From Clostridiales bacterium (GTDB taxonomy: Bacteria; Bacillota; Clostridia; Oscillospirales; JAAYOS01): a stretch of 34,262 bases of DNA. The notes under the pieces were generated by a model. That model saw only the letters and a list, made by a program, of their open reading frames with translations. It searched no databases and was not told where the DNA came from. Location: the NCBI GenBank assembly GCA_012520195.1, contig JAAYOS010000116.1, positions 1 through 34,262 on the forward strand. The letters run 5' to 3'. A program made the translations under genes and the position numbers. Shown here piece after piece: positions 15,793-30,334 of the stretch (positions within the stretch are counted from its first letter, which is position 1; each line of letters starts with the position of its first letter).

Positions 15793-15821
15793 TTGAAACC
15801 GGATATTATTGCATGTATAAT
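15793..15821 (+). promoter_or_regulatory. Predicted promoter of the DRTGG/sensory-hydrogenase operon
   Basis: TTGAAA (15793-15798) and TATAAT (15816-15821) with a 17-base spacer, about 55 bases before the first ATG. It lies back to back with the T-box promoter. Confidence 0.72.
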
Positions 15822-15877: not shown

Positions 15878-16225
15878 ATGACAATAAAAGAGGTAAGAGA
15901 TATTCTTCGGGCAAGAGTTCTGTGCGGGGAGCATCTTCTTTCTCAGGAAGTCCATTCTGCCTGTGGTGCAGACCTAATGAGCGATGTGCTCGCTTTCGTC
16001 AAGGATCAGTCTGTTCTTCTGACGGGACTACTCAACCCTCAGGTAATAAGAACAGCAGATATGATGGATATGGTATGCATTGTGTTTGTCCGAGGCAAGC
16101 TTCCCGATGAATCGATGATCGAGCTAGCAAAGTCTAGAGACATTGTTCTAATGTGTACAGACCTGAGAATGTATTCAGCCTGTGGAAAACTGTATAAAGG
16201 CGGGCTTGTAGGATTGGAGTGCTAA
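15878..16225 (+). CDS. DRTGG-domain protein (first copy)
   Basis: A 115-residue protein with the small alpha/beta DRTGG fold. Visible features are the N-terminal TIKEVRDILRARVLCGE segment, the core GADLMSDVLAFVKDQSVLLTGL and the C-terminal CTDLRMYSACGKLYKGGL. DRTGG domains occur in phosphotransacetylase regulators and near clostridial [FeFe]-hydrogenase genes; their ligand is not established. The residues D-R-T-G-G themselves are not present as a string. It is the first gene of an operon with an RsbW-like ATPase four bases downstream. ATG 15878 follows AAAGGACGGAG. Cytosolic. Confidence 0.7.
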   Translation: MTIKEVRDILRARVLCGEHLLSQEVHSACGADLMSDVLAFVKDQSVLLTGLLNPQVIRTADMMDMVCIVFVRGKLPDESMIELAKSRDIVLMCTDLRMYSACGKLYKGGLVGLEC

Positions 16226-16229
16226 CAAT

Positions 16230-16652
16230 TTGGATTCTCTGCATCTACACTTTGACATAGACGGATCGGATTTTACTTCAGCCGGCGAGGCAGCAAGTGA
16301 GCTTAAGCGTGTTTTGAGGCAGCTGGGTTTTCCCCCTGAGATCATCCGCAGGTGCGCCATCAGCATGTATGAGGGTGAGATCAACATGGTGATACATGCC
16401 AACGGGGGTACTGTCGATGTGTACATAGATAGCGACGAGATAATCTTTGAACTAATAGACAGCGGCCCCGGGATCGCTGATGTCGAACTTGCTATGCAGG
16501 AGGGGTATTCAACAGCATCACAGGAGGTCCGAGATTTGGGCTTTGGAGCAGGCATGGGATTACCAAATATGAAGAGATACACAGACCAGATTATTGTAGA
16601 CTCAATAGTTGGTGTCGGAACAGCCGTTTTTATGAGCATAAAGCTAGAATAG
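16230..16652 (+). CDS. RsbW/SpoIIAB-like ATP-binding protein (GHKL fold)
   Basis: A 140-residue HATPase domain of the anti-sigma/serine-kinase kind. The N box is YEGEINMVIHA (about residues 48-58), the G1 box is ELIDSGPGIAD, the G2 box is GFGAGMGLPNMKRY, and VGVGTAVFMSI closes the fold. There is no histidine phosphoacceptor or sensor domain. In such families the protein binds ATP and phosphorylates or sequesters a partner; no sigma or anti-anti-sigma gene is adjacent, so the partner is unknown. The start is TTG 16230 with GGAG ten bases upstream. It sits between the DRTGG gene and the hydrogenase-like gene, suggesting signalling from the latter. Confidence 0.78.
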   Translation: MDSLHLHFDIDGSDFTSAGEAASELKRVLRQLGFPPEIIRRCAISMYEGEINMVIHANGGTVDVYIDSDEIIFELIDSGPGIADVELAMQEGYSTASQEVRDLGFGAGMGLPNMKRYTDQIIVDSIVGVGTAVFMSIKLE

Positions 16653-16714
16653 TTGACTTGTGAGATCAGTAGACCCGCGTATCAATTCTAAACATAGAAG
16701 AGGTAGTTAGATAG

Positions 16715-18064
16715 ATGAAGCATTCGGTTACTCTTGACAAGGAAAAATGCAAAGGATGCACTACCTGCATGAAGCACTGCCCGACAGAGGCTATACGCGT
16801 TCGTCGCGGCAGGGCACATATTATACAGGACAGGTGTATAGATTGTGGGCAATGCATACGTGTATGTCCCCACCATGCAAAGAAGGCAATATGCGACCCC
16901 TTTGACAGAATTGAGGACTATAAATTTACTGTTGCAATGCCCGCACCATCCTTCTACGGGCAGTTTAGCAACCTTGACGACGTAAATATAGTGTTACAGG
17001 CGCTGCTCGATATCGGATTTGATGCTGTATTTGAGGTATCGCGGGCTGCAGAAATTATTTCTGATATAACTAGAAAAACGTATGATGAGGAGACGGAGAA
17101 GCGTACGGGACCTATCATATCCTCTGCATGTCCAGCTACCGTTCGCCTTATTTGCATGCGTTTCCCAAAGCTGATACCCAACCTCCATAAGATGATAGCC
17201 CCCGTAGAGCTGGCAGCAATGCGCGCGAGAGAGGAAGCTGTTAAAAAGTCAGGTCTTAGCCCCGAAGAAATCGGAGTATTTTTCATTACGCCATGTCCCG
17301 CGAAGGTCACTGCAGACCGCTATCCGCTGTTCCTAGAGGAGAGAGTAATTGACGGGACCTTTTCAATGGCAGACATATACAAACGGGTACTGGGACCTAT
17401 GAAGAAGGTTAAAGAACCTCGGCAAATCAGCAAGTCCGGAATAATGGGGATCGGCTGGGCAAGAGTTGGCGGTGAGTCTTCTGCGCTCCTAAAGGAACAC
17501 CACCTTGCGGTGGATGGGATCGAAAACGTCATTGACATCCTTGAAGATGTTGAAAACGGGCTACTACCTGAGGTAGAGTTCTTGGAGCTTAATGCATGTA
17601 CACAGGGCTGTGTTGGGGGATGCTTAACTGTTGAAAACCCATACACTGCAAAGAGCCGCATACGAAAGCTTATGAAATATCTCCCTGTTAGTAAAAACAA
17701 GGCTGAGCCTGAAGATGCTGAAGCGATTCTGGCACTTGCAAAAAAGGTTCCAGAGTATGTGCCAGTGTGGCAGTTGTCTGAGGACCGCGAGGATGCAATG
17801 AGGATATTCATGGAGATAGCCGATCTCCGGCGTAGACTACCCGGTTTGGATTGCGGTTCCTGTGGAGCACCGTCCTGTAGATCATTTGCGGAGGATGTTG
17901 CTACGAACTTTGCCTCGGAAGAGGACTGCATTTTTCATATGCGTGAACGCATGCAGTATATGGCCGGAGGCGGAGATGCGGACGAGTACCTACCTCCACC
18001 ATTTAGAAGAACTGATGGTGAAGAAAGCGACGAAAAGGACAACGACCACGATGATTTTGGCTAA
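16715..18064 (+). CDS. Degenerate [FeFe]-hydrogenase-like iron-sulfur protein, putative sensor
   Basis: A 449-residue protein in three parts. Residues 1-60 hold two [4Fe-4S] ferredoxin motifs (CKGCTTCMKHCP and CIDCGQCIRVCP). Residues ~65-330 are an H-cluster-type domain. Residues ~378-405 carry a third Cys cluster, CGSCGAPSCRSFAEDV (FeS domain). The H-domain motifs are altered: L1 is SSACP, with Ala138 where catalytic enzymes have the proton-relay Cys; L2 is TPCPAKVTAD, with the usual Glu lost; L3 is NACTQGCVGGC. The four positions expected to bind the cubane (C139, C194, C295, C299) are kept. This matches sensory rather than catalytic groups. No PAS domain is present. The acidic tail is probably disordered. 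Confidence 0.85.
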   Translation: MKHSVTLDKEKCKGCTTCMKHCPTEAIRVRRGRAHIIQDRCIDCGQCIRVCPHHAKKAICDPFDRIEDYKFTVAMPAPSFYGQFSNLDDVNIVLQALLDIGFDAVFEVSRAAEIISDITRKTYDEETEKRTGPIISSACPATVRLICMRFPKLIPNLHKMIAPVELAAMRAREEAVKKSGLSPEEIGVFFITPCPAKVTADRYPLFLEERVIDGTFSMADIYKRVLGPMKKVKEPRQISKSGIMGIGWARVGGESSALLKEHHLAVDGIENVIDILEDVENGLLPEVEFLELNACTQGCVGGCLTVENPYTAKSRIRKLMKYLPVSKNKAEPEDAEAILALAKKVPEYVPVWQLSEDREDAMRIFMEIADLRRRLPGLDCGSCGAPSCRSFAEDVATNFASEEDCIFHMRERMQYMAGGGDADEYLPPPFRRTDGEESDEKDNDHDDFG

Positions 18065-18130
18065 TAATTAGACTTAAGAAACTTAGAAAGGTATAACCTG
18101 GAATAGGTAAAGAAAGGCGAGAATAATTTT

Positions 18131-18463
18131 ATGACTGTTCGAATGCTTGCAGAAAAGTTGGATCTTGAGTGCATAAGTAATGGTGATGGCAACCGTGAAG
18201 TGACTGGCTGTTATGTTGGTGATCTACTGAGCAGGGTTATGGGGAGTGCCAAAGAGGGAAATGTCTGGATAACTATTATGTCGAATGTAAACGTGGCTGC
18301 CGTTGCATCACTAGCTGATGTTTCATGTATAATACTTGCAGAGGGTGTAAAACCGGACGCAGATTTAGAAGCAAAATTAGAGATAGTAGATGCCGCACTA
18401 TACACAACACCTATGGCAAGCTATGAAATAGCATGGAAGATCCATGAGCTAATTGGAGTCTGA
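18131..18463 (+). CDS. DRTGG-domain protein (second copy)
   Basis: A 110-residue DRTGG-fold protein, with MTVRMLAEKLDLECISNGDG at the start, VTGCYVGDLLSRVMGSA in the middle and ADVSCIILAEGVKPDAD towards the C-terminus. It is clearly diverged from the copy at 15878. ATG 18131 is preceded by AAAGGCGAG. Paired DRTGG proteins flanking the hydrogenase-like gene suggest separate roles or a heteromeric sensor, but the function is not known. Co-transcribed with its neighbours. Confidence 0.7.
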   Translation: MTVRMLAEKLDLECISNGDGNREVTGCYVGDLLSRVMGSAKEGNVWITIMSNVNVAAVASLADVSCIILAEGVKPDADLEAKLEIVDAALYTTPMASYEIAWKIHELIGV

Positions 18464-18489
18464 TATTTGGCATTCGGGAAAGGGGACAA

Positions 18490-19224
18490 ATGTTCTGCTA
18501 TTGTGATTTTCATATCCACTCCTGTCTATCCCCCTGCGGTCAGCCTGAAATGACCCCCTCAAACATTGCGAGGATGGCTGCACTGCAGGGCTATAATATA
18601 ATAGCTGTCTCCGACCACAATACAACCGGTAACTGCCGGGCGGTCATTCGTGCAGCAGCTGAGGCTGGTATAGTTGCCATTCCCGCCATGGAACTAACAA
18701 CGTCGGAAGAGGTGCATATGCTGTGTCTCTTGCCCTCTGCGGATGCTGCTGATGAGTTCGGGAAATATGTCTACGAGAGACTTCCCGACATACGCAATGA
18801 GCCCGGTTTTTTTGGTGAGCAAATACTCATGGATTTTGATGACAACATTCTAGGATATGAGGAGCGCCTTTTGATAAATGCGACAGATATAAGCCTCCAG
18901 GATGTCCCCGCTCTGTTGGCCGTATATGGCGGAGTTGCAATACCTGCGCATATCGACAGATCATCTTTTTCGATCCTATCGAACCTGGGATACATCGACC
19001 GTTCGCTGGGTTTTAGAGCGGTTGAGATTTCCCGTGGCTGCGACCCTCGCATTCTCCTGGAGAACTATCCCGAGTTGGATAACATGCCATACTATAAAAA
19101 CTCGGATGCACACGACCTCTACTCAATGCTTACTGCAAAAAACGGACTCGAGCTTGTTGAAATTACTGCTGAGGAAATCATTGATATATTCAAAAGGGGA
19201 GATGTGCCAAACAGGCTTAAATAA
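18490..19224 (+). CDS. PHP-domain metal-dependent phosphoesterase
   Basis: A 244-residue PHP-domain protein. Metal-binding motifs in order: DFHIHSCLSPCG (H-x-H near residues 7-9), VSDHNTTGN, AMELTTSEEVHML, AIPAHIDRS and YKNSDAHDL. Relatives hydrolyse nucleotide or small phosphate substrates; YciV-like members are exonucleases. The substrate here is unknown. It ends the putative sensory operon and precedes the hydrogenase operon promoter. ATG 18490 follows GGGAAAGGGG. A phosphoesterase next to an ATPase and DRTGG proteins would fit a phospho-signal, but that is inference. Confidence 0.82.
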   Translation: MFCYCDFHIHSCLSPCGQPEMTPSNIARMAALQGYNIIAVSDHNTTGNCRAVIRAAAEAGIVAIPAMELTTSEEVHMLCLLPSADAADEFGKYVYERLPDIRNEPGFFGEQILMDFDDNILGYEERLLINATDISLQDVPALLAVYGGVAIPAHIDRSSFSILSNLGYIDRSLGFRAVEISRGCDPRILLENYPELDNMPYYKNSDAHDLYSMLTAKNGLELVEITAEEIIDIFKRGDVPNRLK

Positions 19225-19284
19225 ATTGTCGAGAAAGACAGGAAACCTGTTATATGTGCACATATAATTGTTAAATATTTAACT

Positions 19285-19312
19285 TTGAAAAGAGCCGTTA
19301 TTATGTTATACT
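19285..19312 (+). promoter_or_regulatory. Predicted promoter of the first hydrogenase operon
   Basis: TTGAAA (19285-19290) and TATACT (19307-19312) with a 16-base spacer, about 60 bases before hydC. The -10 element lies at the edge of a long inverted repeat. Confidence 0.65.
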
Positions 19313-19373: not shown

Positions 19374-19886
19374 ATGCCCAATCTTAAGACAAAGGTATCC
19401 TTTAAGGGCACAAAGGAGCAAGAGAAGGAGCTTGTCGACTTCATTCGTGCTCACAGCCAGGATAAGGGATCCATGATGCCGATTCTGCAGAAAGCCCAGG
19501 AGATGTACGGGTACATACCTGAGGAAGTGCAGATTATTATTGCTGAGGAAACGGGAGTTCCGTTAAGTGAAATCTACGGAATCGTATCGTTTTACTCTCA
19601 GTTCACACTTAATCCGAAGGGTAAGTACCAGATATCCGTGTGCCTCGGAACCGCATGCTATGTTAAGGGCGCCGGAGACATTCTGGACAAGGTCTGCGAG
19701 ATTATAGGGTGTGAATCAGGCTCAATAACCGATGACGGCATGTTCTCGGTAGATGCTACCAGATGCATTGGCGCTTGCGGCCTAGCTCCTGTCTTTACGG
19801 TGAACGAAAGCGTATATGGCAGGGTCGATGTTGCAGAAACAGAACAAATTATAAAGAAATATGTAGCTGAAGCCAAGGGAAGCTAA
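19374..19886 (+). CDS. hydC: HydC/NuoE-type [2Fe-2S] subunit of bifurcating hydrogenase
   Basis: The small subunit of a trimeric NADH/ferredoxin-linked [FeFe]-hydrogenase, 170 residues. The N-terminal helical part contains MMPILQKAQEMYGYIPEE. The thioredoxin-like domain binds one [2Fe-2S] cluster through Cys90, Cys95, Cys131 and Cys135 (VCLGTAC and CIGACG). IVSFYSQFTLNPKGKY is the family signature. It passes electrons within the complex with HydB and HydA encoded 1-3 kb downstream. ATG 19374 follows AGGAGG. The stop overlaps the next gene's ATG (TAATG). It is first in the operon behind an inverted repeat. Confidence 0.93.
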   Translation: MPNLKTKVSFKGTKEQEKELVDFIRAHSQDKGSMMPILQKAQEMYGYIPEEVQIIIAEETGVPLSEIYGIVSFYSQFTLNPKGKYQISVCLGTACYVKGAGDILDKVCEIIGCESGSITDDGMFSVDATRCIGACGLAPVFTVNESVYGRVDVAETEQIIKKYVAEAKGS

Positions 19887-20422
19887 TGGAGGATCTCTCT
19901 CTACATATTCTCGATATATCACAGAACTCGCTTCGTGCGGGTGCGAAGAATATATTCATTGTGATTAGAGATTTACCCGAACCTGATCTTCTAGAGATTT
20001 CGGTGGAGGATGACGGGTCGGGGATGGATGAAGAGCTGCTGAGCAGAGTAACGGACCCTTTTGTTACAACACGAGATACCCGCAGTATCGGACTCGGTAT
20101 TCCCCTATTGAAAATGGCTGCTGAAATGAGTGGCGGAAGGTTCAACATAACCAGTGAAACGGGTAAGGGAACTAAAATCGTTGCTTCTTTTGGGCGATCA
20201 CATATCGACAGTCCCCCCCTAGGAGACATAGCAGAAACGGTGGTAACTCTAATTCAAGGCAATCCTGATGTCAGATTTAGATATGAGAGATGCACGGAAC
20301 AGGGCGTTTTCTCCCTCGATACAAAAGAGTTGGCCGAGATTCTTCAGGGAGTGCCTCTAAACGAACCGGAGGTACTGCAGTGGATCAGGGAATATCTAGA
20401 GGATGCAGATGCGGACATTTGA
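19886..20422 (+). CDS. Histidine-kinase-like ATPase domain protein
   Basis: A 178-residue protein consisting of a GHKL ATPase domain plus a ~55-residue tail. The N box is HILDISQNSLRAGAKNI, the G1 box EDDGSGMDEELL, the F region TDPFVTTRDTR, and the G2 box IGLGIPLLKMAAEMSGG. There is no phosphoacceptor His, PAS domain or membrane segment, so it is not a complete sensor kinase. The start ATG overlaps the hydC stop by one base, tying its translation to hydC. I recall the same placement in other clostridial hydrogenase operons. Its role, perhaps regulatory or in assembly, is not known. Confidence 0.8.
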   Translation: MEDLSLHILDISQNSLRAGAKNIFIVIRDLPEPDLLEISVEDDGSGMDEELLSRVTDPFVTTRDTRSIGLGIPLLKMAAEMSGGRFNITSETGKGTKIVASFGRSHIDSPPLGDIAETVVTLIQGNPDVRFRYERCTEQGVFSLDTKELAEILQGVPLNEPEVLQWIREYLEDADADI

Positions 20423-20503
20423 CCTTTGATTGTTTGGTTAACCGGATAGTGCCGGTTACGAGAGTATAAACCTTTACAAATGAACACTGTAAGGAGATTA
20501 TTT

Positions 20504-20875
20504 ATGAAAAAAAGCATTGAAGAACTGAATGCAATTCGGGAAAGAATGCAACAGAACATTCAGGTGCGGACAGAAAACGCCGATAATACTCGCGTAGTAG
20601 TCGGAATGGCGACATGCGGAATCGCAGCAGGTGCCCGTCCCGTACTCACAGCGATTGTTGATGAGGTAAACCGCAGAAAGCTTAAGAATGTTACCGTGAC
20701 CCAGACAGGGTGCATAGGTGTTTGCCGGCTTGAGCCGATCGTCGAGATTTACGAGCCAGGCAAAGAAAAGGTAACATATGTAAATATGGACGAAAATAAG
20801 GCAAGACAGGTTGTTTCCGAACACCTCGTAAACCAGAGGGTTGTCGACGAATATACCATCGGAGCTGCCAAATAA
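20504..20875 (+). CDS. Small thioredoxin-like [2Fe-2S] ferredoxin-type protein, only three cysteines
   Basis: A 123-residue protein resembling the N-terminal domain of HydB/NuoF. It has GMATCGIAAGARPVL and, 32 residues later, QTGCIGVCRLEPIVE. Cys38, Cys70 and Cys74 are the only cysteines; the second Cys of the usual CxxxxC pair is Gly (position 43). I believe CGIAAGA is normal in this clostridial family, so cluster ligation may use another residue. The first in-frame ATG is 20480, but AAGGAG (20491-20496) directs ATG 20504. It lies between the ATPase and hydB; it is a likely accessory electron carrier or subunit. Confidence 0.78.
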   Translation: MKKSIEELNAIRERMQQNIQVRTENADNTRVVVGMATCGIAAGARPVLTAIVDEVNRRKLKNVTVTQTGCIGVCRLEPIVEIYEPGKEKVTYVNMDENKARQVVSEHLVNQRVVDEYTIGAAK

Positions 20876-20895: not shown

Positions 20896-22692
20896 ATGAA
20901 TTTAGTAAGAACCCACGTGTTGGTATGCGGAGGAACCGGATGTACCTCGGCAAACAGCCCAGCATTGATTGATGAGTTTCACAAAGAGCTTGACAAGCGC
21001 GACCTCTCTAAAGAGGTCCAGGTCATTCAAACCGGCTGCTTTGGTCTGTGCGCACTTGGTCCTATTGTAATAGTCTACCCCGAAGGGTCATTCTACTCTA
21101 TGGTAAAGGTAGAGGATGTCTCTGAGATCGTTGAAGAGCATATCCTTAAGGGACGCATTGTCACCCGCCTCCTTTATGAGGGAAGCTTAGACGAGATGGA
21201 GTTAGTCAAATCACTGGATGAGACCGACTTCTACAAAAAGCAGCATAGAATCGCCCTGCGTAACTGCGGCGTCATAAATCCAGAAGATATAGATGAGTAC
21301 ATTGCAAATGACGGATACCAGGCACTTGCAAAAGCGCTGACAAGCATGACTCCCCAAGAGGTTATCGATACTGTGTTAGCATCCGGACTTCGCGGACGCG
21401 GCGGTGCCGGATTCCCTACCGGAAGAAAGTGGCAATTTGCTGCAAATGAGGATAACCCACAGAAGTATGTATGCTGTAACGCCGACGAGGGTGACCCCGG
21501 AGCATTCATGGACCGTTCACTGCTTGAAGGAGATCCTCACAGCATAATCGAAGCGATGGCACTTGCCGGATACGCTATAGGCGCCAATCAGGGCTATGTT
21601 TACGTCCGTGCAGAGTATCCAATAGCCGTTAACAGGCTAAAAATCGCTATAGAGCAGGCTAAAGAGTATGGTTTCCTGGGTAAGGACATATTCGGAAGTG
21701 GATTTGATTTCGACCTAGATATTAGGCTTGGAGCAGGCGCATTTGTGTGCGGCGAAGAGACAGCCCTCATGGCATCGATAGAGGGACATCGCGGTGAGCC
21801 GCGTCCCCGTCCGCCGTTCCCGGCAGTTAAGGGACTGTTCGGAAAGCCGACTGTTCTAAATAACGTCGAAACCTATGCTAACATTCCGTGGATCATATAC
21901 CATGGGCCGGAAGCATTTGCGGAAATCGGAACGGAAAAGTCCAAAGGAACAAAGGTATTTGCCTTGGGTGGAAAGATTACAAATACCGGCCTTGTTGAGA
22001 TTCCAATGGGAACCACTCTCAGAGAGGTTATCGAGGAAATCGGTGGCGGAGTTCCTAACGGCAAGAAGTTCAAAGCAGCACAGACAGGCGGACCCTCTGG
22101 TGGATGTATCCCCGAATCACTGCTGGATACACCGATGGACTTTGAGAGTCTTGCTGAGGTCGGCTCCATCATGGGATCCGGTGGACTGATTGTCATGGAC
22201 GAAGACAACTGCATGGTCGATATCGCGAAGTTCTTCCTGCAGTTTACCGTCGACGAGTCCTGCGGAAAATGTGTACCCTGCCGTGTAGGTATGTATAGGT
22301 TACACGAACTCTTAGAGAAGATAACAAGTGGCAACGGCACTTTGGAAGACATAGATCTTATCGAAGAGCTCTGCTATCACATAAAGGAAAACTCCCTGTG
22401 CGGTCTCGGACAGACAGCACCAAACCCGGTTCTGTCAACGTTAGAGCATTTCCGCGACGAGTATGTTGCTCACGTTACAGAGAAAAGATGTCCTGCTGGA
22501 GTCTGTAAAGAGCTTCTCCGTTACTTTATTATTGCCGATAAGTGCACAGGTTGTACAGCATGTTCGCGTGTTTGTCCTACAAATGCTATCTCGGGCGAGG
22601 TCAAGAAAGTACATGAAATTGACCAGGACAAATGCATAAAATGCGGCGCTTGCATGGAAAGATGCAGATTTGGCGCAATTGTTAAGATCTAG
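20896..22692 (+). CDS. hydB: HydB/NuoF-type flavin subunit of bifurcating hydrogenase
   Basis: The 598-residue diaphorase subunit that exchanges electrons with NAD(H). An N-terminal thioredoxin-like [2Fe-2S] domain (CGGTGC, TGCFGLCALGP) comes first. The FMN/NADH core has GLRGRGGAGFPTGRKW, CNADEGDPGAFMDRS and GAGAFVCGEETAL. One [4Fe-4S] cluster is bound by Cys456, Cys459, Cys462 and Cys502 (ESCGKCVPCR, LCGLGQ). A C-terminal two-cluster ferredoxin (CTGCTACSRVCP, CIKCGACMERC) spans residues ~545-598. This layout matches trimeric electron-bifurcating hydrogenases such as that of Thermotoga maritima. ATG 20896 follows GGGACGGGAG. hydA starts 19 bases after its stop. Confidence 0.94.
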   Translation: MNLVRTHVLVCGGTGCTSANSPALIDEFHKELDKRDLSKEVQVIQTGCFGLCALGPIVIVYPEGSFYSMVKVEDVSEIVEEHILKGRIVTRLLYEGSLDEMELVKSLDETDFYKKQHRIALRNCGVINPEDIDEYIANDGYQALAKALTSMTPQEVIDTVLASGLRGRGGAGFPTGRKWQFAANEDNPQKYVCCNADEGDPGAFMDRSLLEGDPHSIIEAMALAGYAIGANQGYVYVRAEYPIAVNRLKIAIEQAKEYGFLGKDIFGSGFDFDLDIRLGAGAFVCGEETALMASIEGHRGEPRPRPPFPAVKGLFGKPTVLNNVETYANIPWIIYHGPEAFAEIGTEKSKGTKVFALGGKITNTGLVEIPMGTTLREVIEEIGGGVPNGKKFKAAQTGGPSGGCIPESLLDTPMDFESLAEVGSIMGSGGLIVMDEDNCMVDIAKFFLQFTVDESCGKCVPCRVGMYRLHELLEKITSGNGTLEDIDLIEELCYHIKENSLCGLGQTAPNPVLSTLEHFRDEYVAHVTEKRCPAGVCKELLRYFIIADKCTGCTACSRVCPTNAISGEVKKVHEIDQDKCIKCGACMERCRFGAIVKI

Positions 22693-22711: not shown

Positions 22712-24472
22712 ATGAGCACTGTAAAAGTGAAAGTTAACGGCATGGAGGTAGAATGCTCCGCCAACGATACCGTTCTTGAGGCGGCTCGCCTTGCCGGAGT
22801 CGATATACCAACTCTATGCTATATGAGGGACATTGCTCCAATCGGTGCATGCCGCATGTGTGTCACCGAAGTATCGGGCGCTAGAGGTCTGGTTGCTGCG
22901 TGTGCATATCCTGTCGAAGATGGAATGGAGATCAACACAAATTCTCAGAAAGCGTACAACGCTAGAAAAAGAACCCTTGAACTGATACTCTCCCAACACC
23001 GTCGGGACTGCCTGACATGTGACCGCAACATGAACTGTGAGCTTCAGAAGCTTTCAAAAGACTACAATATTAAAGAAGTCCGTTTAGGACATCCTGAGGA
23101 CATGGTGCCCCAGATAGAAGACTCCATGATCCATCTCATTAGGGACAATTCCAAGTGCGTCCTGTGCCGTCGCTGTGTCAACATCTGTAAAGAGACACAG
23201 AGCATAGGAGTAATCGGTCCCAACGACAGGGGATTTGCAACACAAATTTCCTGCGCATTTGACCGTAATCTTGATGAGACTGCATGCGTATCCTGCGGCC
23301 AGTGTATCACAGTATGCCCCACCGGCGCACTGACAGAGCGCGACTGCACAGATAAGGTCTGGAATGCACTTGCTGACAAAACAAAACACGTTGTTGTCGG
23401 AACCGCACCTTCGGTCCGGGTAACCCTCGGAGAGTGCTTTGGAATGCCAATCGGCACAAACGTACAGGGCAAAATGGTTGCTGCACTACGCAGAATGGGA
23501 TTCGACGGAGTATTTGACGTTGACGTTACCGCTGATCTCACCATTATGGAGGAGGGCACTGAGTTTCTCGGACGCCTCAACAGTGGAGAAAACCTCCCGC
23601 TCATCACCTCCTGCAGCCCTGGATGGGTCAAGTTCTGTGAGCACTACTATCCCGAGTTCATTCCGAATCTCTCCTCATGTAAGTCACCACAGCAGATGTT
23701 TGGTGCAATGATGAAGACATACTATGCCGAAAAGATGGGCCTCAACCCCGAAGATATTTTCGTAGTAGGCATAATGCCATGTACTGCAAAGAAGTACGAG
23801 CGCTACCGTGATTATCAGGACGCAGTTCCCGGTATTCCGGATGTAGATGCGTCAATCACAACAAGAGAGCTTGCTCGCATGATCGACACATCAGGCATTT
23901 CATTTGTCGATTTGCCAGATGAGGACTTCGACCCCTCCTTCGGAATCTCCAGCGGCGCAGGTCTCATATTTGGAGCAACTGGCGGAGTTATGGAAGCAGC
24001 ACTCAGAACCGTTGCTGACATAGTCACAGGCGAAGACCTGGATACACTTGATTACCACGAGGTACGTGGAACAGAGGGAATAAAGGAAGCCCAGTACGAC
24101 TTGAACGGCAGACAGATCAGGGTTGCTGTGGCCTCCGGACTTGCAAACGCAAGAGCTCTGCTTGAGAGAGTAAAGAGCGGCGAGGCAAGCTACGATATGA
24201 TAGAGATCATGGCCTGCCCGGGCGGATGCATAAACGGCGGCGGACAGCCCATACAGCCCCAGAGTGTAAGAAACTTTGTCGATTTAAGGACATTGAGAGC
24301 AAAGGCCATATACTCTGCAGACAAGAGCATGAAAATGAGAAAGAGCCACGAAAGTCCGGTAATCAAAGAAATCTATGATGCCTACCTTGGTAATCCTGGC
24401 AGCGAGAAAGCACACAAACTGCTGCATACAAAATACCAGGCCAGGTCAAAATACCCCGGCGTAGCTGAATAA
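22712..24472 (+). CDS. hydA: [FeFe]-hydrogenase catalytic subunit HydA (first set)
   Basis: The 586-residue subunit that makes or oxidises H2. The N-terminal [2Fe-2S] domain (CYMRDIAPIGACRMC) is followed by a His-Cys [4Fe-4S] site (HRRDCLTCDRNMNC). A two-cluster ferredoxin follows (CVLCRRCVNICK, CVSCGQCITVCP), then the H-cluster domain. L1 is TSCSPGW (Cys301, Ser302) rather than the textbook TSCCPGW. L2 is MPCTAKKYE (Cys357) and L3 is MACPGGCINGGGQP (Cys502, Cys506). The small-subunit-like tail ends KSHESP...LLHTKY. ATG 22712 is chosen, eight bases after AAAGGAG. With HydB and HydC it should couple reduced ferredoxin and NADH to H2. A terminator-like hairpin follows. Confidence 0.95.
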   Translation: MSTVKVKVNGMEVECSANDTVLEAARLAGVDIPTLCYMRDIAPIGACRMCVTEVSGARGLVAACAYPVEDGMEINTNSQKAYNARKRTLELILSQHRRDCLTCDRNMNCELQKLSKDYNIKEVRLGHPEDMVPQIEDSMIHLIRDNSKCVLCRRCVNICKETQSIGVIGPNDRGFATQISCAFDRNLDETACVSCGQCITVCPTGALTERDCTDKVWNALADKTKHVVVGTAPSVRVTLGECFGMPIGTNVQGKMVAALRRMGFDGVFDVDVTADLTIMEEGTEFLGRLNSGENLPLITSCSPGWVKFCEHYYPEFIPNLSSCKSPQQMFGAMMKTYYAEKMGLNPEDIFVVGIMPCTAKKYERYRDYQDAVPGIPDVDASITTRELARMIDTSGISFVDLPDEDFDPSFGISSGAGLIFGATGGVMEAALRTVADIVTGEDLDTLDYHEVRGTEGIKEAQYDLNGRQIRVAVASGLANARALLERVKSGEASYDMIEIMACPGGCINGGGQPIQPQSVRNFVDLRTLRAKAIYSADKSMKMRKSHESPVIKEIYDAYLGNPGSEKAHKLLHTKYQARSKYPGVAE

Positions 24473-24526: not shown

Positions 24527-24662
24527 TCTGGAATTTTCGACAGACATCGACATAATCCGACAGACGATAGGGCAGTAAACTGGAGAGGGGGAGTTGCAGG
24601 GGACGTTATTAGCGTTCAAATATATAAGTTCGTACAAGACCACTGTAAAGGAGGCAATCACA

Positions 24663-25190
24663 ATGAGTCAAACTCAAGTGAGGTCGGGCAGAAGCGCACG
24701 CGACAGCTCATTAGCGTATGCTGACAATGTCCGGCCGGCGGCGAGGTACCCTGAAGTTGCAGAAGTTATTGATAGGTACAGGGGCCATGAGGGCTGCTTG
24801 ATCCAGATTCTCCACGCGGCACAGGGCATCTATGGATGTCTTCCGTTGGACCTGCAGATGTTCATTGCGGAGTCGTTGGATTTGCCGCTATCCGAGGTGG
24901 CTGGCGTGGTCTCGTTTTACTCCTTCTTCTCGGTAAATCCCAGAGGACAGCATACGATTCGTGTATGCTTGGGAACTGCGTGTTATGTACGCGGCGGGAA
25001 GAAGATCGTCGATCATCTCCGAGAGTCGCTGGGAATCGATGTAGGGGAAACCACCGAGGATGGGAAGTTCACTTTTGAGATTGCGCGCTGTATAGGCGCA
25101 TGTGGTCTCGCTCCCGCTGTAATGATCGATGACACTGTCTATAAGCAGGTGTCTGCTGCAAAGATTGATGCAATTCTTGCAAAGTACTGA
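24663..25190 (+). CDS. HydC/NuoE-type [2Fe-2S] subunit (second set)
   Basis: A 175-residue paralogue of the HydC at 19374. It has CLIQILHAAQGIYGCLP, GVVSFYSFFSVNPRGQH and the [2Fe-2S] ligands Cys102, Cys107, Cys143 and Cys147 (VCLGTAC, CIGACG). A basic ~25-residue N-terminal extension precedes the family region. The frame is open from 24594, but AAAGGAGG at 24648-24655 sets ATG 24663. Its stop abuts the fused HydB-NfnB gene, so the two are co-translated. It presumably passes electrons within a second trimeric hydrogenase. Confidence 0.9.
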   Translation: MSQTQVRSGRSARDSSLAYADNVRPAARYPEVAEVIDRYRGHEGCLIQILHAAQGIYGCLPLDLQMFIAESLDLPLSEVAGVVSFYSFFSVNPRGQHTIRVCLGTACYVRGGKKIVDHLRESLGIDVGETTEDGKFTFEIARCIGACGLAPAVMIDDTVYKQVSAAKIDAILAKY

Positions 25191-25205
25191 TTGGGGGTGA
25201 AGAGA

Positions 25206-28200
25206 TTGAGGAGAATTATTAGGGAACTGAATGATCTAAAGAGAATCAAGTCAGAGTATAGGGAGAAGGAGGATAATTACTCGCACAGTATCCTAGTTTG
25301 CGCTGGAGCGGGCTGTGTTTCATCAAACTGCTACGATGTCAGTGACGCTGTTAAGGATGAAATCGCCAGGCTTTCAGTCTCGGACAGCGTTCGGGTCATC
25401 GAGACCGGTTGTATGGGGACCTGCGCTGTGGGGCCGGTGATGCTTATCCTTCCAGAAAGAGTGTTTTATACTGAGCTTACACCTGAAACAGCCCGGGAGG
25501 TAGTACGTGCTCATCTGATCGATAAAAAGATATTGGAGGAGCATACCTTCTACGATCATTCACTCCGAAAGCATGTGCCGGTTATTGACGATATTGAGTT
25601 TTTCAAAAACCAGGTGCGAATAGCTCTGAGAAACTGTGGACAGATCGAACACGCGAGCATAGAAGCATATATTGAGAGGGACGGGTATCTTGGTGCCCAC
25701 AAAGTCCTGACATCCATGACCCCGCAACAGGTGGTCAATGAGGTCAAGGATTCAGGTCTTCGCGGGCGTGGGGGAGCCGGGTTCCCAACTGGTATCAAGT
25801 GGGAAGCGGGACTCAGAGCGAAATCTGATATTAAGTACATAGTGTGTAATGCTGATGAAGGTGACCCCGGTGCATTTATGGACCGCAGTATCATTGAGGG
25901 CGATCCACACACATTGATTGAAGGCATGATTATCGGCGGGTACGCCATCGGGGCAAATAGGGGATACGTATACATTAGGGCTGAGTACCCTCTAGCCATT
26001 GAGCGTCTTGAAGCTGCTCTAGTCCAAGCACGAGAATACGGACTTTTGGGCAAAAACTTGTTTGGTACCGGGTTTGACTTTGACCTAGAAATACGTATCG
26101 GTGCCGGGGCATTTGTGTGTGGCGAGGAGACGGCACTAATGTCTTCAATTGAAGGCAATAGGGGAGAGCCAAGACAGAAGCCGCCACTGCCCTTTGAAGC
26201 CGGACTTTTCGGCAAGCCTACGATAATAAACAATGTGGAGACAATTGCAGCCATTCCCCCGATTATCGTCAAAGGCAGTGCATGGTTTGGCCAGTTTGGA
26301 ACCGAGAAGGCTAAGGGGACAAAGGTATTTGCACTTGCTGGCGACATAATTAACACTGGAATCGTTGAGGTCCCAATCGGTATCCCTTTGGGAGAGATCA
26401 TCTTCCGTATCGGTGGCGGGATGCTCGGGAAGAAGAAGTTCAAAGCTGCCCAGATTGGAGGACCGTCGGGTGGATGTGTGACGCAGGAGAACCTAAACGT
26501 CCCAACCGACTATGAGTCGCTGACAATGCTAGGTGCAATCATGGGTTCAGGAGGCCTTATCACCATGGATGAGGATACCTGCATGGTGGATACTGCCCGC
26601 TATTTCATGGAGTTCATACAGGATGAGTCCTGCGGAAAGTGCGTAGCCTGCCGTATTGGAACAAGGCGTATGCTTGAGATCCTTGAGAGAATCACTCAAG
26701 GCAAAGGTGTAGAGGGAGACATCGAGCGACTAGAGGAGCTCGGCAGAACAATACAGCAGACGGCGATGTGCGGATTGGGACAGACGGCTCCAAATCCTGT
26801 CCTCAGCACGATCAAGTACTTCAAAGAGGAATATGAAGAACATATCAGATACAAGTACTGCCGCGCCGGAGTTTGTGCAGATCTGTTTATTTCACCCTGC
26901 GAAAATGCCTGCCCTGCAAACGTCAACATACCCGGCTACCTTGCACTTATCTCATCGGGACGGTTTATAGATGCATACGAACTTATAAAACAAGAAAATC
27001 CCCTACCGGCGATATGCGGGAGAATATGTACCCATCCCTGTGAGGATAAATGCCGTCGTGCAACAATCGACGAGGCCTTGGCAATATGCGACTTGAAGCG
27101 CTTTGTCTCCGACTATGCCCTGAACAACTCTGCAAACTATCTGCACCAAGATATACTTTTACCCAAGAACTCAAAGAGGGTTGCGATAATAGGTGCTGGA
27201 GCTTCAGGTTTGACATGTGGATATTACCTAGCCCGTCTCGGCTATGAGGTTACAATATTCGAGGCTGAATCAGTAGCGGGTGGCGTTCTTGCTTTCGGGA
27301 TTCCTGAGTACCGTCTACCTTCCGAAGTCATTCAGCGCGAGATAGAGGAGATAGAAAAAACCGGTGTAAATATCATGCTAAATACCGAGGTTGGTAGGGA
27401 TATATCCTTCGAGCACTTAAGGAACACATATGACGCAGTATACATAGCAACAGGAACCCAAGTGCCACAGAAGGTAGGAGTGCCGGGAGAGGAGTTGTCG
27501 GGAGTATTACCTGGAATCACTTTCCTGAAGGACGTAAAGCTAAACAAAGCGGTTGACCTCACGGGCCATGTTGTTGCGGTTATTGGTGGTGGTAACACTG
27601 CAATTGACTCGGCACGCACAGCACTGCGCCTCGGAGCAAAAAAGGTCATGATTCTGTATCGCCGACTGCGCGAGACCATGCCCGCTTACGAGCTTGAGGT
27701 AGAGGAAGCACTACACGAGGGAATTGAGCTTCATGAGCTGGTATCACCTGTTCGTTTTGTGGCCGGCAGACGCGGAAAGGTTGAAAAGGTAGAGTGTGTT
27801 CGCAGGCGCATGAAGGACTTCGACAATAATGGACGCCGCAATACTGAGCATATAGAAGGCTCAAACTTTATGATTCCTGTAGATACAGTGATAACAGCGG
27901 TGAGCCAGTATGCGGACCTTCCCTTTGTAAAGCCAAGCGAGATCGGAGTAACTCGTTGGGGAACCTTTGTAATCGATGACGAGACTCAGATGACAACAAT
28001 GCCCGGTGTTTTTGCAGGGGGAGACGTTGTGCGCGGGCCCGACGAGGTAATAAGGGCAATAGCAGATGGAAAGCATGCTGCGGTCAATATTGACAAATAT
28101 CTCGGAGGGCTAGGCAAATTGAATAAGGGTAGACACATCGATATTCCCGAGATACTTGATGAAGATGAGATTGTAGACCACATGAGATTTGCGCAGGAGA

Positions 28201-28310
28201 TGCTGCCGCTTGAAAAACGGAAAAACTCTTTTGAAGAGGTGGTTAAGGGATACCATAAGCTTAACGCCATTGCTGAATCGATGCGCTGTCTACACTGTGA
28301 CAGGAGGTGA
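25206..28310 (+). CDS. HydB/NuoF fused to NfnB/GltD-like FAD-NADPH oxidoreductase
   Basis: A single intact frame of about 1034 residues. Residues ~25-110 are a thioredoxin-like [2Fe-2S] domain (CAGAGC, TGCMGTC). Residues ~125-550 are a NuoF-type FMN/NAD(H) core (RGRGGAGFPTGIKW, CNADEGDPGAFMDRS, ESCGKCVACR). From ~565 the usual C-terminal ferredoxin is replaced by a GltD/NfnB module. This starts with two [4Fe-4S] motifs (CENACPANVNIPGYL, CGRICTHPCEDKC). An FAD Rossmann fold (AIIGAGASGLTCGYYLA, ~660) and an NADPH Rossmann fold (AVIGGGNTAIDSARTALRLG, ~790) with YRRLRETMPA follow. The extreme C-terminus is CLHCDRR. TTG 25206 fits the ribosome site GGGGGTGA; TTG 25191 and GTG 25197 are alternatives. 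It overlaps or abuts both neighbours. Confidence 0.92.
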   Translation: MRRIIRELNDLKRIKSEYREKEDNYSHSILVCAGAGCVSSNCYDVSDAVKDEIARLSVSDSVRVIETGCMGTCAVGPVMLILPERVFYTELTPETAREVVRAHLIDKKILEEHTFYDHSLRKHVPVIDDIEFFKNQVRIALRNCGQIEHASIEAYIERDGYLGAHKVLTSMTPQQVVNEVKDSGLRGRGGAGFPTGIKWEAGLRAKSDIKYIVCNADEGDPGAFMDRSIIEGDPHTLIEGMIIGGYAIGANRGYVYIRAEYPLAIERLEAALVQAREYGLLGKNLFGTGFDFDLEIRIGAGAFVCGEETALMSSIEGNRGEPRQKPPLPFEAGLFGKPTIINNVETIAAIPPIIVKGSAWFGQFGTEKAKGTKVFALAGDIINTGIVEVPIGIPLGEIIFRIGGGMLGKKKFKAAQIGGPSGGCVTQENLNVPTDYESLTMLGAIMGSGGLITMDEDTCMVDTARYFMEFIQDESCGKCVACRIGTRRMLEILERITQGKGVEGDIERLEELGRTIQQTAMCGLGQTAPNPVLSTIKYFKEEYEEHIRYKYCRAGVCADLFISPCENACPANVNIPGYLALISSGRFIDAYELIKQENPLPAICGRICTHPCEDKCRRATIDEALAICDLKRFVSDYALNNSANYLHQDILLPKNSKRVAIIGAGASGLTCGYYLARLGYEVTIFEAESVAGGVLAFGIPEYRLPSEVIQREIEEIEKTGVNIMLNTEVGRDISFEHLRNTYDAVYIATGTQVPQKVGVPGEELSGVLPGITFLKDVKLNKAVDLTGHVVAVIGGGNTAIDSARTALRLGAKKVMILYRRLRETMPAYELEVEEALHEGIELHELVSPVRFVAGRRGKVEKVECVRRRMKDFDNNGRRNTEHIEGSNFMIPVDTVITAVSQYADLPFVKPSEIGVTRWGTFVIDDETQMTTMPGVFAGGDVVRGPDEVIRAIADGKHAAVNIDKYLGGLGKLNKGRHIDIPEILDEDEIVDHMRFAQEMLPLEKRKNSFEEVVKGYHKLNAIAESMRCLHCDRR

Positions 28311-28315
28311 GTGGT

Positions 28316-30334
28316 GTGATTAACTTAAGTATTAACGGCAGGAAGGTTCAGGCACCGGACGGCTGCACCATTATGGAGGCCGCAAAGTACAACGGCATTA
28401 ATATTCCGAGCCTGTGTTATCTAGAGAACATACATGCAGTAGGATCATGCAGGATTTGTGTGGTCGAGGTGGAGGGTGCTAAGACTCTTCAGGCCTCCTG
28501 TATTACCAAAGCTAGAGAAGGTATGGTCATCCACACAAACTCCAAAGTGGTAAGGGAGGCCAGAAAAGTACTGTATGAGCTTATTCTCTCCGATCACGAA
28601 CAGGATTGTCTGAGCTGTACACGCAATCAGACCTGTGAACTTCAGGAATTGGGCAGAATACTTGGAGTCGATCAGACAAGGTTTGAGGGAGAAAGATCAA
28701 AAAGCAGTAAGGATTACTCATACTCGATATTCAGGGACAACTCTAAGTGCATTCTCTGTCGCAGGTGTGTTACCGTATGTAATGAAGTACAGAGTACAGG
28801 AGTACTTTTCCCGCAGAACAGGGGTTTTGAAACGATTATAGGCCCTGCCATGGATTTACCGTTGGGCTCCACCGCCTGCGCGTTCTGCGGACAATGCACA
28901 GTTGTCTGCCCTGTGGGAGCATTGAAGGAGACCGATGCAATAGAGCAGGTCTGGGATGCACTGCACGATTCGGAAAAACGTGTTGTAGTTCAGGTTGCTC
29001 CGGCTATACGCGTCTCAATCGGAGAGGAGTTCGGACTTGAACCGGGAACCCGCTGCACTGGAAAGTTGGCATCTGCTCTTGAGGCGCTCGGATTTGACGA
29101 TGTTTTTGACACCAATTGGGCGGCAGACCTGACAATCATCGAGGAGGGGACCGAGCTATTGGGCCGCCTGAAAAGAGCGGTCTCTGGAGAGGATGCTGTG
29201 CTCCCGATGATTACAAGCTGTAGCCCGGGGTGGATAAAGTTTATCGAGAACAACTTCCCAGATAAACTTGGTCACCTGTCTACCTGCAAATCTCCCCATA
29301 CAATGATGGGTGCAATCGTCAAATCCTACTACGCTAAAAAAATCGGGGTTGATCCCAAGGATATCTTTGTGGTATCGATAATGCCCTGTACAGCCAAGAA
29401 AACTGAAATTGTGCGTGAGGAGATGCAAAACGGCGGATACCCCAATGTGGACGCTGTTCTGACTACAAGAGAACTCGGAAGCATGATAAAGGAAGCCGGA
29501 ATTGACTTTGTCAATCTTCCTGACCGGATGTTTGATGCGCCACTCGGAATTTCATCAGGTGCAGCAGACATTTTTGGAGCAACGGGAGGAGTAATGGAAG
29601 CAGCCCTTAGGACTGTGTATGAGCTTGTTACAGGACGTGAGCTGCCCTTTGAAAACCTCCATGTAGAACCGATAATCGGTCTCGAGGGTATTAAGGAAGC
29701 TGCAATCAGGATTGAAGAACCCCTTGCCGAATACAAGAATTTCGACGGCGTAGAGTTAAGGATTGCTGTTTCAAACGGCCTGAAAAACGCCCGCACACTT
29801 ATGGATGAGGTGAAAGCAGGGAATTCACCGTATCATTTTATTGAGATAATGGGATGTCCGGGTGGATGTATCAACGGCGGCGGTCAACCACGTAGTAGCG
29901 ATCCGGATGTACGCGAGAAGCGCCTGAGGGGTATCTACGATGAGGATGAATCAAAGGTGTTACGCAAGTCGCATGAAAACCCTGCGATACAGACAATCTA
30001 CAAGGAGTTCTTAGGGGAGCCAAACGGGAAGAAATCGCATGAGCTCCTCCACACAAAATATATAGGCAGAGGTCTGTTCAATGAGCTTAGTGATGAGTCC
30101 TTTGTCGTTGAGCCTGAGAAACCTGTAAAGCGGACGCACGTGAAGGTATCTCCTTTGGCGGTGCAGATAACCCGCCAAGAGGTGACCCAAAGCTCAAAGC
30201 GGGAAAACACTGTTGACTCGGCTCAATTGTTAGCCCTTGAGGCAGAGAACAGAAGGCTACGCAAGGAAGCTGAGGAGCATGAAGAGACTGTTCGTCTGCT
30301 TAAGGAAGTAATAAAATCATATGTGGAAAACTAG
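28316..30334 (+). CDS. hydA: [FeFe]-hydrogenase catalytic subunit HydA (second set) with C-terminal coiled coil
   Basis: A 672-residue paralogue of the first HydA. Cluster motifs in order: [2Fe-2S] (CYLENIHAVGSCRIC), His-Cys [4Fe-4S] (HEQDCLSCTRNQTC), two [4Fe-4S] (CILCRRCVTVC, CAFCGQCTVVCP). The H domain has L1 TSCSPGW (Cys302), L2 MPCTAKKTE and L3 MGCPGGCINGGGQP, where Gly513 replaces the usual Ala before Cys514. About 90 residues follow the normal LLHTKY end, finishing in a charged heptad-rich helix (LLALEAENRRLRKEAEEHEE). GTG 28316 is chosen, five bases after AGGAGGTGA, which is itself the end of the fusion gene; GTG 28307 is an alternative. Partner of the HydB-NfnB fusion. Confidence 0.93.
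   Translation: MINLSINGRKVQAPDGCTIMEAAKYNGINIPSLCYLENIHAVGSCRICVVEVEGAKTLQASCITKAREGMVIHTNSKVVREARKVLYELILSDHEQDCLSCTRNQTCELQELGRILGVDQTRFEGERSKSSKDYSYSIFRDNSKCILCRRCVTVCNEVQSTGVLFPQNRGFETIIGPAMDLPLGSTACAFCGQCTVVCPVGALKETDAIEQVWDALHDSEKRVVVQVAPAIRVSIGEEFGLEPGTRCTGKLASALEALGFDDVFDTNWAADLTIIEEGTELLGRLKRAVSGEDAVLPMITSCSPGWIKFIENNFPDKLGHLSTCKSPHTMMGAIVKSYYAKKIGVDPKDIFVVSIMPCTAKKTEIVREEMQNGGYPNVDAVLTTRELGSMIKEAGIDFVNLPDRMFDAPLGISSGAADIFGATGGVMEAALRTVYELVTGRELPFENLHVEPIIGLEGIKEAAIRIEEPLAEYKNFDGVELRIAVSNGLKNARTLMDEVKAGNSPYHFIEIMGCPGGCINGGGQPRSSDPDVREKRLRGIYDEDESKVLRKSHENPAIQTIYKEFLGEPNGKKSHELLHTKYIGRGLFNELSDESFVVEPEKPVKRTHVKVSPLAVQITRQEVTQSSKRENTVDSAQLLALEAENRRLRKEAEEHEETVRLLKEVIKSYVEN

Follow-up and report, generated by a model that had tools for sequence, protein, structure and literature searches.

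A five-gene cassette around a group D [FeFe]-hydrogenase that is probably a hydrogen or redox sensor for electron-bifurcating enzymes

The stretch of DNA analysed here (the window; 34,262 nucleotides) is one entire contig, JAAYOS010000116.1, of the Clostridiales bacterium assembly GCA_012520195.1, a draft metagenome-assembled genome (MAG) of 209 contigs that is 96% complete. Between positions 15878 and 19224 lie five genes, all of them open reading frames (ORFs) on the plus strand, which we call DRTu, ATP1, HydS, DRTd and PHP in the order in which they occur. An initial annotation of the window had described them as genes for a DRTGG protein, an RsbW-like ATPase, a hydrogenase-like protein, a second DRTGG protein and a PHP phosphoesterase, placed directly upstream of a hydrogenase operon. 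The ORF positions proved exact, and a Pfam scan of the five products returned DRTGG, HATPase_c_2, Fer4 with Fe_hyd_lg_C and FeS (PF04060), DRTGG and PHP, in agreement with the proposed domain types. The placement is also correct, as the operon HydC-ATP2-TrxFd-HydB-HydA starts 149 bp after the cassette. The features of the cassette are as follows.

15793 to 15821, plus strand: promoter-like site TTGAAA-17-TATAAT preceding the cassette (11 of 12 consensus positions; consensus match only)
15878 to 16225, plus strand: DRTu, upstream DRTGG protein, 115 aa (Pfam DRTGG, 24.0 bits against a cut-off of 25.2)
16230 to 16652, plus strand: ATP1, SpoIIAB/RsbW-like HATPase, 140 aa, TTG start (Pfam HATPase_c_2, motifs, Foldseek)
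16715 to 18064, plus strand: HydS, group D [FeFe]-hydrogenase, 449 aa (Pfam, residues, tree)
18131 to 18463, plus strand: DRTd, downstream DRTGG protein, 110 aa (Pfam DRTGG, 22.6 bits against a cut-off of 25.2)
18490 to 19224, plus strand: predicted PHP-family metal-dependent phosphoesterase, 244 aa (Pfam, 23.1 bits against a cut-off of 26.4; metal-ligand residues)

Its residues and layout identify HydS as a group D (M2e) [FeFe]-hydrogenase resembling TamHydS. It consists of two N-terminal [4Fe-4S] motifs (C12/15/18/22 and C41/44/47/51), an H-domain with the cubane ligands C139/194/295/299, and a C-terminal Cx2Cx4Cx16C iron-sulfur (FeS) domain (C380/383/388/405), and all 16 FeS-ligating Cys are retained. 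Ala138 aligns with the proton-relay Cys299 of CpI, Thr192 stands at the position of Met353, and the Glu of the L2 motif is replaced by Ala200 (PCPAKVTAD). The Pfam scan detected no PAS domain in HydS, and the chain stops shortly after the FeS domain, which places it outside group C (M2f). The initial annotation had read the four cubane ligands, Ala138, the loss of the L2 Glu and the lack of PAS correctly. Its description of the hydrogenase as degenerate did not stand: substitutions of the Ala138/Thr192/Ala200 type are hallmarks of group D as published for TamHydS, and since TamHydS, which bears them, is a slow yet reversible hydrogenase (PMC8163306), the word is the wrong one. The proton path proposed for TamHydS is E252-E289-S249-D265 (PMC10407848). 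Three of these four residues are present in HydS, where E252, E289 and D265 correspond to E254, E291 and D267 and V251 takes the place of the moderately conserved S249. In a tree of [FeFe]-hydrogenases, which the initial annotation had proposed as a check, HydS fell inside its own clade of 24 group-D-like rows (SH-aLRT 100), joined to the group C rows as a sister clade at 93; because TamHydS was not among the tree rows, the group D name rests on residues and layout. The suggestion that the protein fits the sensory groups is upheld, in that HydS is a relative of sensory-group [FeFe]-hydrogenases with group D residues.

HydS and TamHydS of Thermoanaerobacter mathranii share the domain layout, Ala in place of Cys299, Ser or Thr in place of Met353, the C-terminal Cx2Cx4Cx16C motif, the alternative proton path, the lack of PAS, a HATPase neighbour and a location upstream of a bifurcating hydrogenase. 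They differ in that HydS has Val251 where TamHydS has Ser249, and in that maturases were not found in the source genome of HydS. The group C (M2f) protein TmHydS belongs to the sister clade and has the same F-domain, H-domain and C-terminal FeS domain, but group C proteins carry PAS in the same chain, together with a C-terminal HATPase region at two loci (L181 and L222; L and G numbers denote loci or neighbourhoods and genomes, respectively, G000 being the source genome), whereas here these roles would fall to separate proteins. At L181, L222 and L229, the group D cassette is preceded, at a distance of a few kb, by the gene for a group C hydrogenase-like protein (741-778 aa), so that two sensor types lie side by side; the copies with the C-terminal HATPase region are those of L181 and L222.

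ATP1 and PHP retain their catalytic motifs. ATP1 has the N, G1 and G2 boxes of the HATPase fold (N-box E48/N52, D77xGxG81, G106xGxG110 and GT130-131), which are invariant or almost so across homologs, and its top Foldseek match is SpoIIAB (1til, E 2e-11); it scores 46.9 bits against the SpoIIAB equivalog, short of the cut-off of 135. In PHP, residues H8, H10, D42, H43, E68, H76, H154, D206 and H208 are invariant among 27 homologs, and among solved structures, those nearest to it in sequence are EndoQ, TM0559 and a PHP-family 5'-3' exoribonuclease. The window proteins fall below the DRTGG and PHP profile cut-offs; fused homologs score 31.2 and 30.1 bits for DRTGG and 41.2 bits for PHP. DRTu carries the motif ACGsDmMSDVL...LLTGL.NpQ..RTA, conserved over about 100 homologs, with an invariant Ser35 in MSDVL, and its fold matches the DRTGG structure 2ioj (TMt 0.80) by way of a fused homolog. 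In DRTd, the DxLS motif, T48 and N54 are invariant, and Ser34 lies in DLLS. Because the catalytic residues of ATP1 and PHP are kept, we expect ATP1 to be an active ATPase or kinase and PHP a metal phosphoesterase. By analogy with SpoIIAA, Ser35 of DRTu and Ser34 of DRTd are candidate phosphosites, and we infer that the cassette carries out kinase and phosphatase chemistry.

This arrangement recalls the SpoIIAB/RsbW modules (with SpoIIAA/RsbV and SpoIIE/RsbU) in the fold and ATP-binding motifs of ATP1, in the small partner domain and in a possible phosphatase within the operon. It departs from them in that the partner is DRTGG and not STAS, the candidate phosphatase is PHP and not PP2C, no sigma factor lies nearby, and ATP1 scores far below the equivalog cut-off. 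A second parallel is the CBS-DRTGG region of a clostridial pyrophosphatase (3l2b, 3l31), in which the same fold is functionally paired with CBS; there, both domains belong to one enzyme, whereas in the cassettes DRTGG is free-standing and CBS, where it occurs (see below), is attached to the kinase-like ATPase.

Profiles of the ten window proteins were run on 111 neighbourhoods, of which 80 came from named GTDB contigs, and on a further 60 drawn from about 45 families of the phylum; 167 neighbourhoods, a few of them duplicates, were tallied. All five genes were present as separate ORFs in 139 of the 167, the exceptions being mostly contig ends or fusions. The order DRTu-ATP1-HydS-DRTd-PHP is nearly constant and is kept in about 40 families, with median intergenic gaps of -4, 29, -4 and -4 bp along the cassette. 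Most cassettes adjoin hydrogenase genes, but because HydABC may lie downstream, be divergent, wrap round the cassette or not be nearby at all (L038, L040, L056, L064), the cassette is a unit of its own. The initial annotation had named chance co-occurrence as a ground for rejecting a common function, and a survey of 299 genomes of the phylum excludes chance association: 114 encode both HydS and PHP, 8 HydS only, 5 PHP only and 172 neither (Fisher p ~1e-65), and the corresponding numbers for HydS and DRTu are 121, 1, 12 and 165 (p 2e-68). The cassette genes are thus co-inherited in many anaerobes.

Natural gene fusions link the same proteins. DRTu and ATP1 form a single chain in nine genomes (L161, L163, L164, L165, L166, L168, L191, L204 and L229), one of which, that of L166, is the single-contig genome G336. 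ATP1 is joined to HydS in L209, HydS to DRTd in L181 and L222, PHP to ATP2 in five genomes (L172, L223 and three identified by open-frame length), and ATP2 to TrxFd in L184. Pfam confirmed the domain composition of the L204, L222, L209 and L172 fusions. Long ATP1 ORFs in several Oscillospiraceae were rejected as fusions, being artefacts of upstream start codons. These fusions mean that all adjacent pairs up to DRTd are joined somewhere and that PHP is tied to ATP2 of the enzyme operon. Confident AlphaFold2 models were obtained for the DRTu-ATP1 fusion of L204 (pLDDT 90.9, pTM 0.77) and the HydS-DRTd fusion of L222 (pLDDT 91.7, pTM 0.75). In the DRTu-ATP1 model, the ATPase half best matches SpoIIAB and the DRTGG half matches 2ioj and 3l2b, and the best matches of the HydS-DRTd model are [FeFe]-hydrogenases.

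CBS domains are ordinary ligand-sensing modules. In four loci (L231, L233, L234 and L246), HydS is missing and the cassette has the form DRTu-[CBS-CBS-ATP1]-DRTd-PHP-ATP2. The replacement of HydS by CBS in some lineages makes HydS most likely the sensor component of the cassette. Together with co-occurrence and the fusions, it also supports the proposal, made in the initial annotation, that output may run through the separate ATPase, DRTGG and PHP proteins. CBS-ATP1 occurs along with HydS in L182 and L213, genome G342 has one cassette of each type, and G175 has a split system in which ATP1-HydS and DRTu-DRTd-PHP-ATP2 occupy different loci. ATP2 belongs to the relay, because it stays with PHP even where hydrogenase genes are absent. 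In a tree of DRTu and ATP1, the HydS-less cassettes were scattered, and support was too weak to show the direction of gain or loss. Loci L235-L239 have DRTu-ATP1, at times with DRTd and a short ATP2-like ATPase, and lack HydS, CBS and PHP; they represent a minimal relay form.

Downstream of the cassette, the window contains the following.

19268 to 19285, plus strand: candidate Rex-like operator TTGTTAAATATTTAACTT touching the -35 element of the hydrogenase operon (2 mismatches to TTGTTAAN4TTAACAA)
19285 to 19312, plus strand: promoter-like site TTGAAA-16-TATACT with extended TG, for the downstream operon (consensus match only)
19374 to 19886, plus strand: HydC, NuoE-like [2Fe-2S] subunit (profile matches)
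19886 to 20422, plus strand: ATP2, second HATPase, histidine-kinase CA type, 178 aa (profile match and fusions in relatives)
20480 to 20875, plus strand: TrxFd, small thioredoxin-like [2Fe-2S] protein (profile matches)
20896 to 22692, plus strand: HydB, NuoF-like flavin subunit (profile matches)
22712 to 24472, plus strand: HydA, group A6 catalytic subunit (NF040763, 883.7 bits against a cut-off of 765)

The best PDB match of HydA is A. woodii HydA1 (7q4v). A second HydC-HydB-HydA operon follows immediately (24594-30334), and its HydB, of 1039 aa, has an additional Fer4_20/Pyr_redox_2 region that resembles a GltD/NfnB-type NAD(P)H module. Rex is an NADH/NAD+-responsive repressor; a rex gene is encoded in the source genome, and at a minority of loci one lies next to the cassette. 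The Rex-like site at 19268-19285 overlaps the -35 element of the hydABC promoter and sets its control apart from that of the cassette promoter at 15793. Overall, Rex-like sites upstream of HydC scored barely better than shuffled sequence, the shuffling being crude. Apart from Rex, the recurring neighbours seen in a search for a conserved local regulator were only housekeeping or lineage-specific genes.

We think it reasonably probable that the five genes encode one signalling complex, with HydS as the input, ATP1 as the hub, the DRTGG proteins as adaptors, PHP as the reset and the enzyme as the output. HydS, with an H-cluster site and three accessory [4Fe-4S] clusters, would sense H2, low-potential electrons or both. 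ATP1, the SpoIIAB-like ATPase/kinase, would be physically coupled to HydS and to DRTu and DRTd, small adaptor or effector domains that are its best candidate substrates. PHP, a metal-dependent phosphoesterase, might reset the system or handle a phosphorylated product, and would couple to ATP2. The output would adjust either how much of the adjacent electron-bifurcating NAD/ferredoxin enzyme is made or how active it is, this enzyme being the hydrogenase here and formate dehydrogenase elsewhere. The cassette is thus probably a sensor that informs an electron-bifurcating hydrogenase or formate dehydrogenase of the hydrogen or redox state, and the data are best matched by a sensor of redox state or H2 that acts on the adjacent enzyme. 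Some points weigh against this interpretation. The C-terminal cluster of TamHydS was found to be unresponsive to H2 (PMC13104023), predicted models of the fusions do not prove domain contacts, and neither a DNA-binding output protein nor a sigma factor nor a STAS partner recurred among the genes near the cassette. Furthermore, PHP is absent from 8 of the 122 HydS genomes and DRTd from some, so that not every part is essential.

One could envision several alternatives for what the cassette senses and does. HydS might genuinely sense H2 by means of a complete H-cluster, as has been suggested for TamHydS. The group D features of HydS are complete, including the alternative proton path, hydrogenase genes adjoin most cassettes, and HydG is over-represented with HydS (84/122 HydS genomes against 76/177 others, p 1e-5). 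On the other hand, neither the source genome nor most of the relatives sampled from its family (G001, G002, G004-G009) yielded HydE, HydF or HydG, some cassettes have CBS only, and others lie beside formate dehydrogenase. In six HydG-negative genomes (G069, G107, G144, G264, G279 and G302), the neighbouring catalytic subunit ends in NNIDHCARL, and in L186 this subunit continues through UGA as U-HAPTVAGL, which identifies a selenocysteine formate dehydrogenase on a HydBC-type core. Short "HydA" ORFs of 352-359 aa were accordingly rejected as truncated hydrogenases; they are formate dehydrogenases read up to the UGA selenocysteine codon. A formate dehydrogenase catalytic subunit with HydBC-type genes adjoins the cassette in L186, L187, L195, L217, L218, L230 and L172, the readthrough having been read in L186 only. 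We hold the H2 sensor to be a credible reading, somewhat short of an even chance, and because the maturases were not found in the genome and most of the family, and the cassette elsewhere adjoins formate dehydrogenase, H2 is doubtful as the ligand in this particular organism.

Alternatively, HydS here might contain the cubane and the accessory [4Fe-4S] clusters with no [2Fe] subcluster, and might report on ferredoxin or another source of electron pressure instead of on H2. The missing maturases bear directly on this possibility, as 12-13 of 30 relatives, among them G003 of the same family and members of other families of the order, do have them. HydG was undetected in 38 of the 122 HydS genomes of the phylum, several of which have the selenocysteine formate dehydrogenase, and not a hydrogenase, as the neighbour. 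Every aligned HydS retains the 16 FeS Cys at each of these columns that it covers, but loss of the CN-contacting Lys (equivalent to K358 of CpI) is confined to HydG-negative genomes (4/26 loci against 0/46). However, two of the four losses fall in one family, and in the window HydS has an intact pocket and keeps Lys197, E254, E291 and D267, and the HydA motifs are canonical, which would be odd if the [2Fe] cluster were never made. In addition, because the maturase genes can share one operon (G028), a single assembly gap in a MAG could hide all three. The redox-only reading is conceivable, and we hold it a shade more tentatively than that of an H2 sensor. Either the maturases were missed in the source genome, or HydS can sense redox without a [2Fe] site. 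The source genome and most of the sampled family members have [FeFe]-hydrogenase genes with canonical motifs, yet HydE, HydF and HydG were undetected in them; lineage loss, divergent maturases and assembly gaps are the alternatives. In two HydG-negative genomes, HydS is broken into two ORFs (split in L195 of G144, interrupted in L189 of G118), and the remaining cassette is intact or nearly so.

A more far-reaching proposal, which we regard as rather unlikely in its full form, is a modular system whose sensor can be swapped, being either an H-cluster-type protein or a CBS pair, and whose common DRTGG-ATPase-PHP-ATPase relay would control bifurcating hydrogenases or formate dehydrogenases directly through ATP2 and the [2Fe-2S] subunit, a route that only the fusions suggest; where HydE, HydF and HydG are lacking, the hydrogenase-like sensor would be a pure iron-sulfur redox sensor. 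It is improbable that the cassette serves in maturation or repair, with HydS as a scaffold on which the metal centres of the neighbouring bifurcating enzyme would be assembled, activated or protected: the tight tie to the HydBC-type core regardless of the catalytic subunit, the ATP2-TrxFd fusion and the persistence of the cassette where the maturases are absent would agree with such a role, but a normal HydG accompanies most cassettes and the CBS-ATP1 form has the look of a regulator more than of an assembly factor. Least probable of all is a slow catalytic hydrogenase with a minor metabolic role and incidental partners, given that HydS is fused to and co-inherited with the ATPase, DRTGG and PHP proteins and that TamHydS, although catalytically reversible (PMC8163306), has a very low reported turnover (PMC10407848).

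A sensory role for group D is not new. The group has been called putatively sensory since at least 2012 from nearby kinases and bifurcating hydrogenases (PMC3561251), and its location upstream of the latter and near a kinase-like ATPase has been described (PMC8163306; PMC3561251). The TamHydS papers mention the flanking ATPase and state the signal path without PAS as an open question (PMC8163306, PMC13104023). Among open-licence papers, we found none that links DRTGG or PHP proteins to group D hydrogenases, and what is new in the present work is the set of partners, the fusions among them and the replacement of HydS by CBS. The co-inherited and mutually fused ATPase, DRTGG and PHP proteins offer concrete, testable answers to how group D hydrogenases signal without PAS, and the natural fusions are ready-made single-chain proteins for structural work and assays. 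Both the exchange of HydS for CBS domains and the occurrence of formate dehydrogenase beside the cassette suggest that electron-bifurcating enzymes are served by a general control module; in fermenting gut and environmental anaerobes, it is these enzymes that set the output of H2 and formate.

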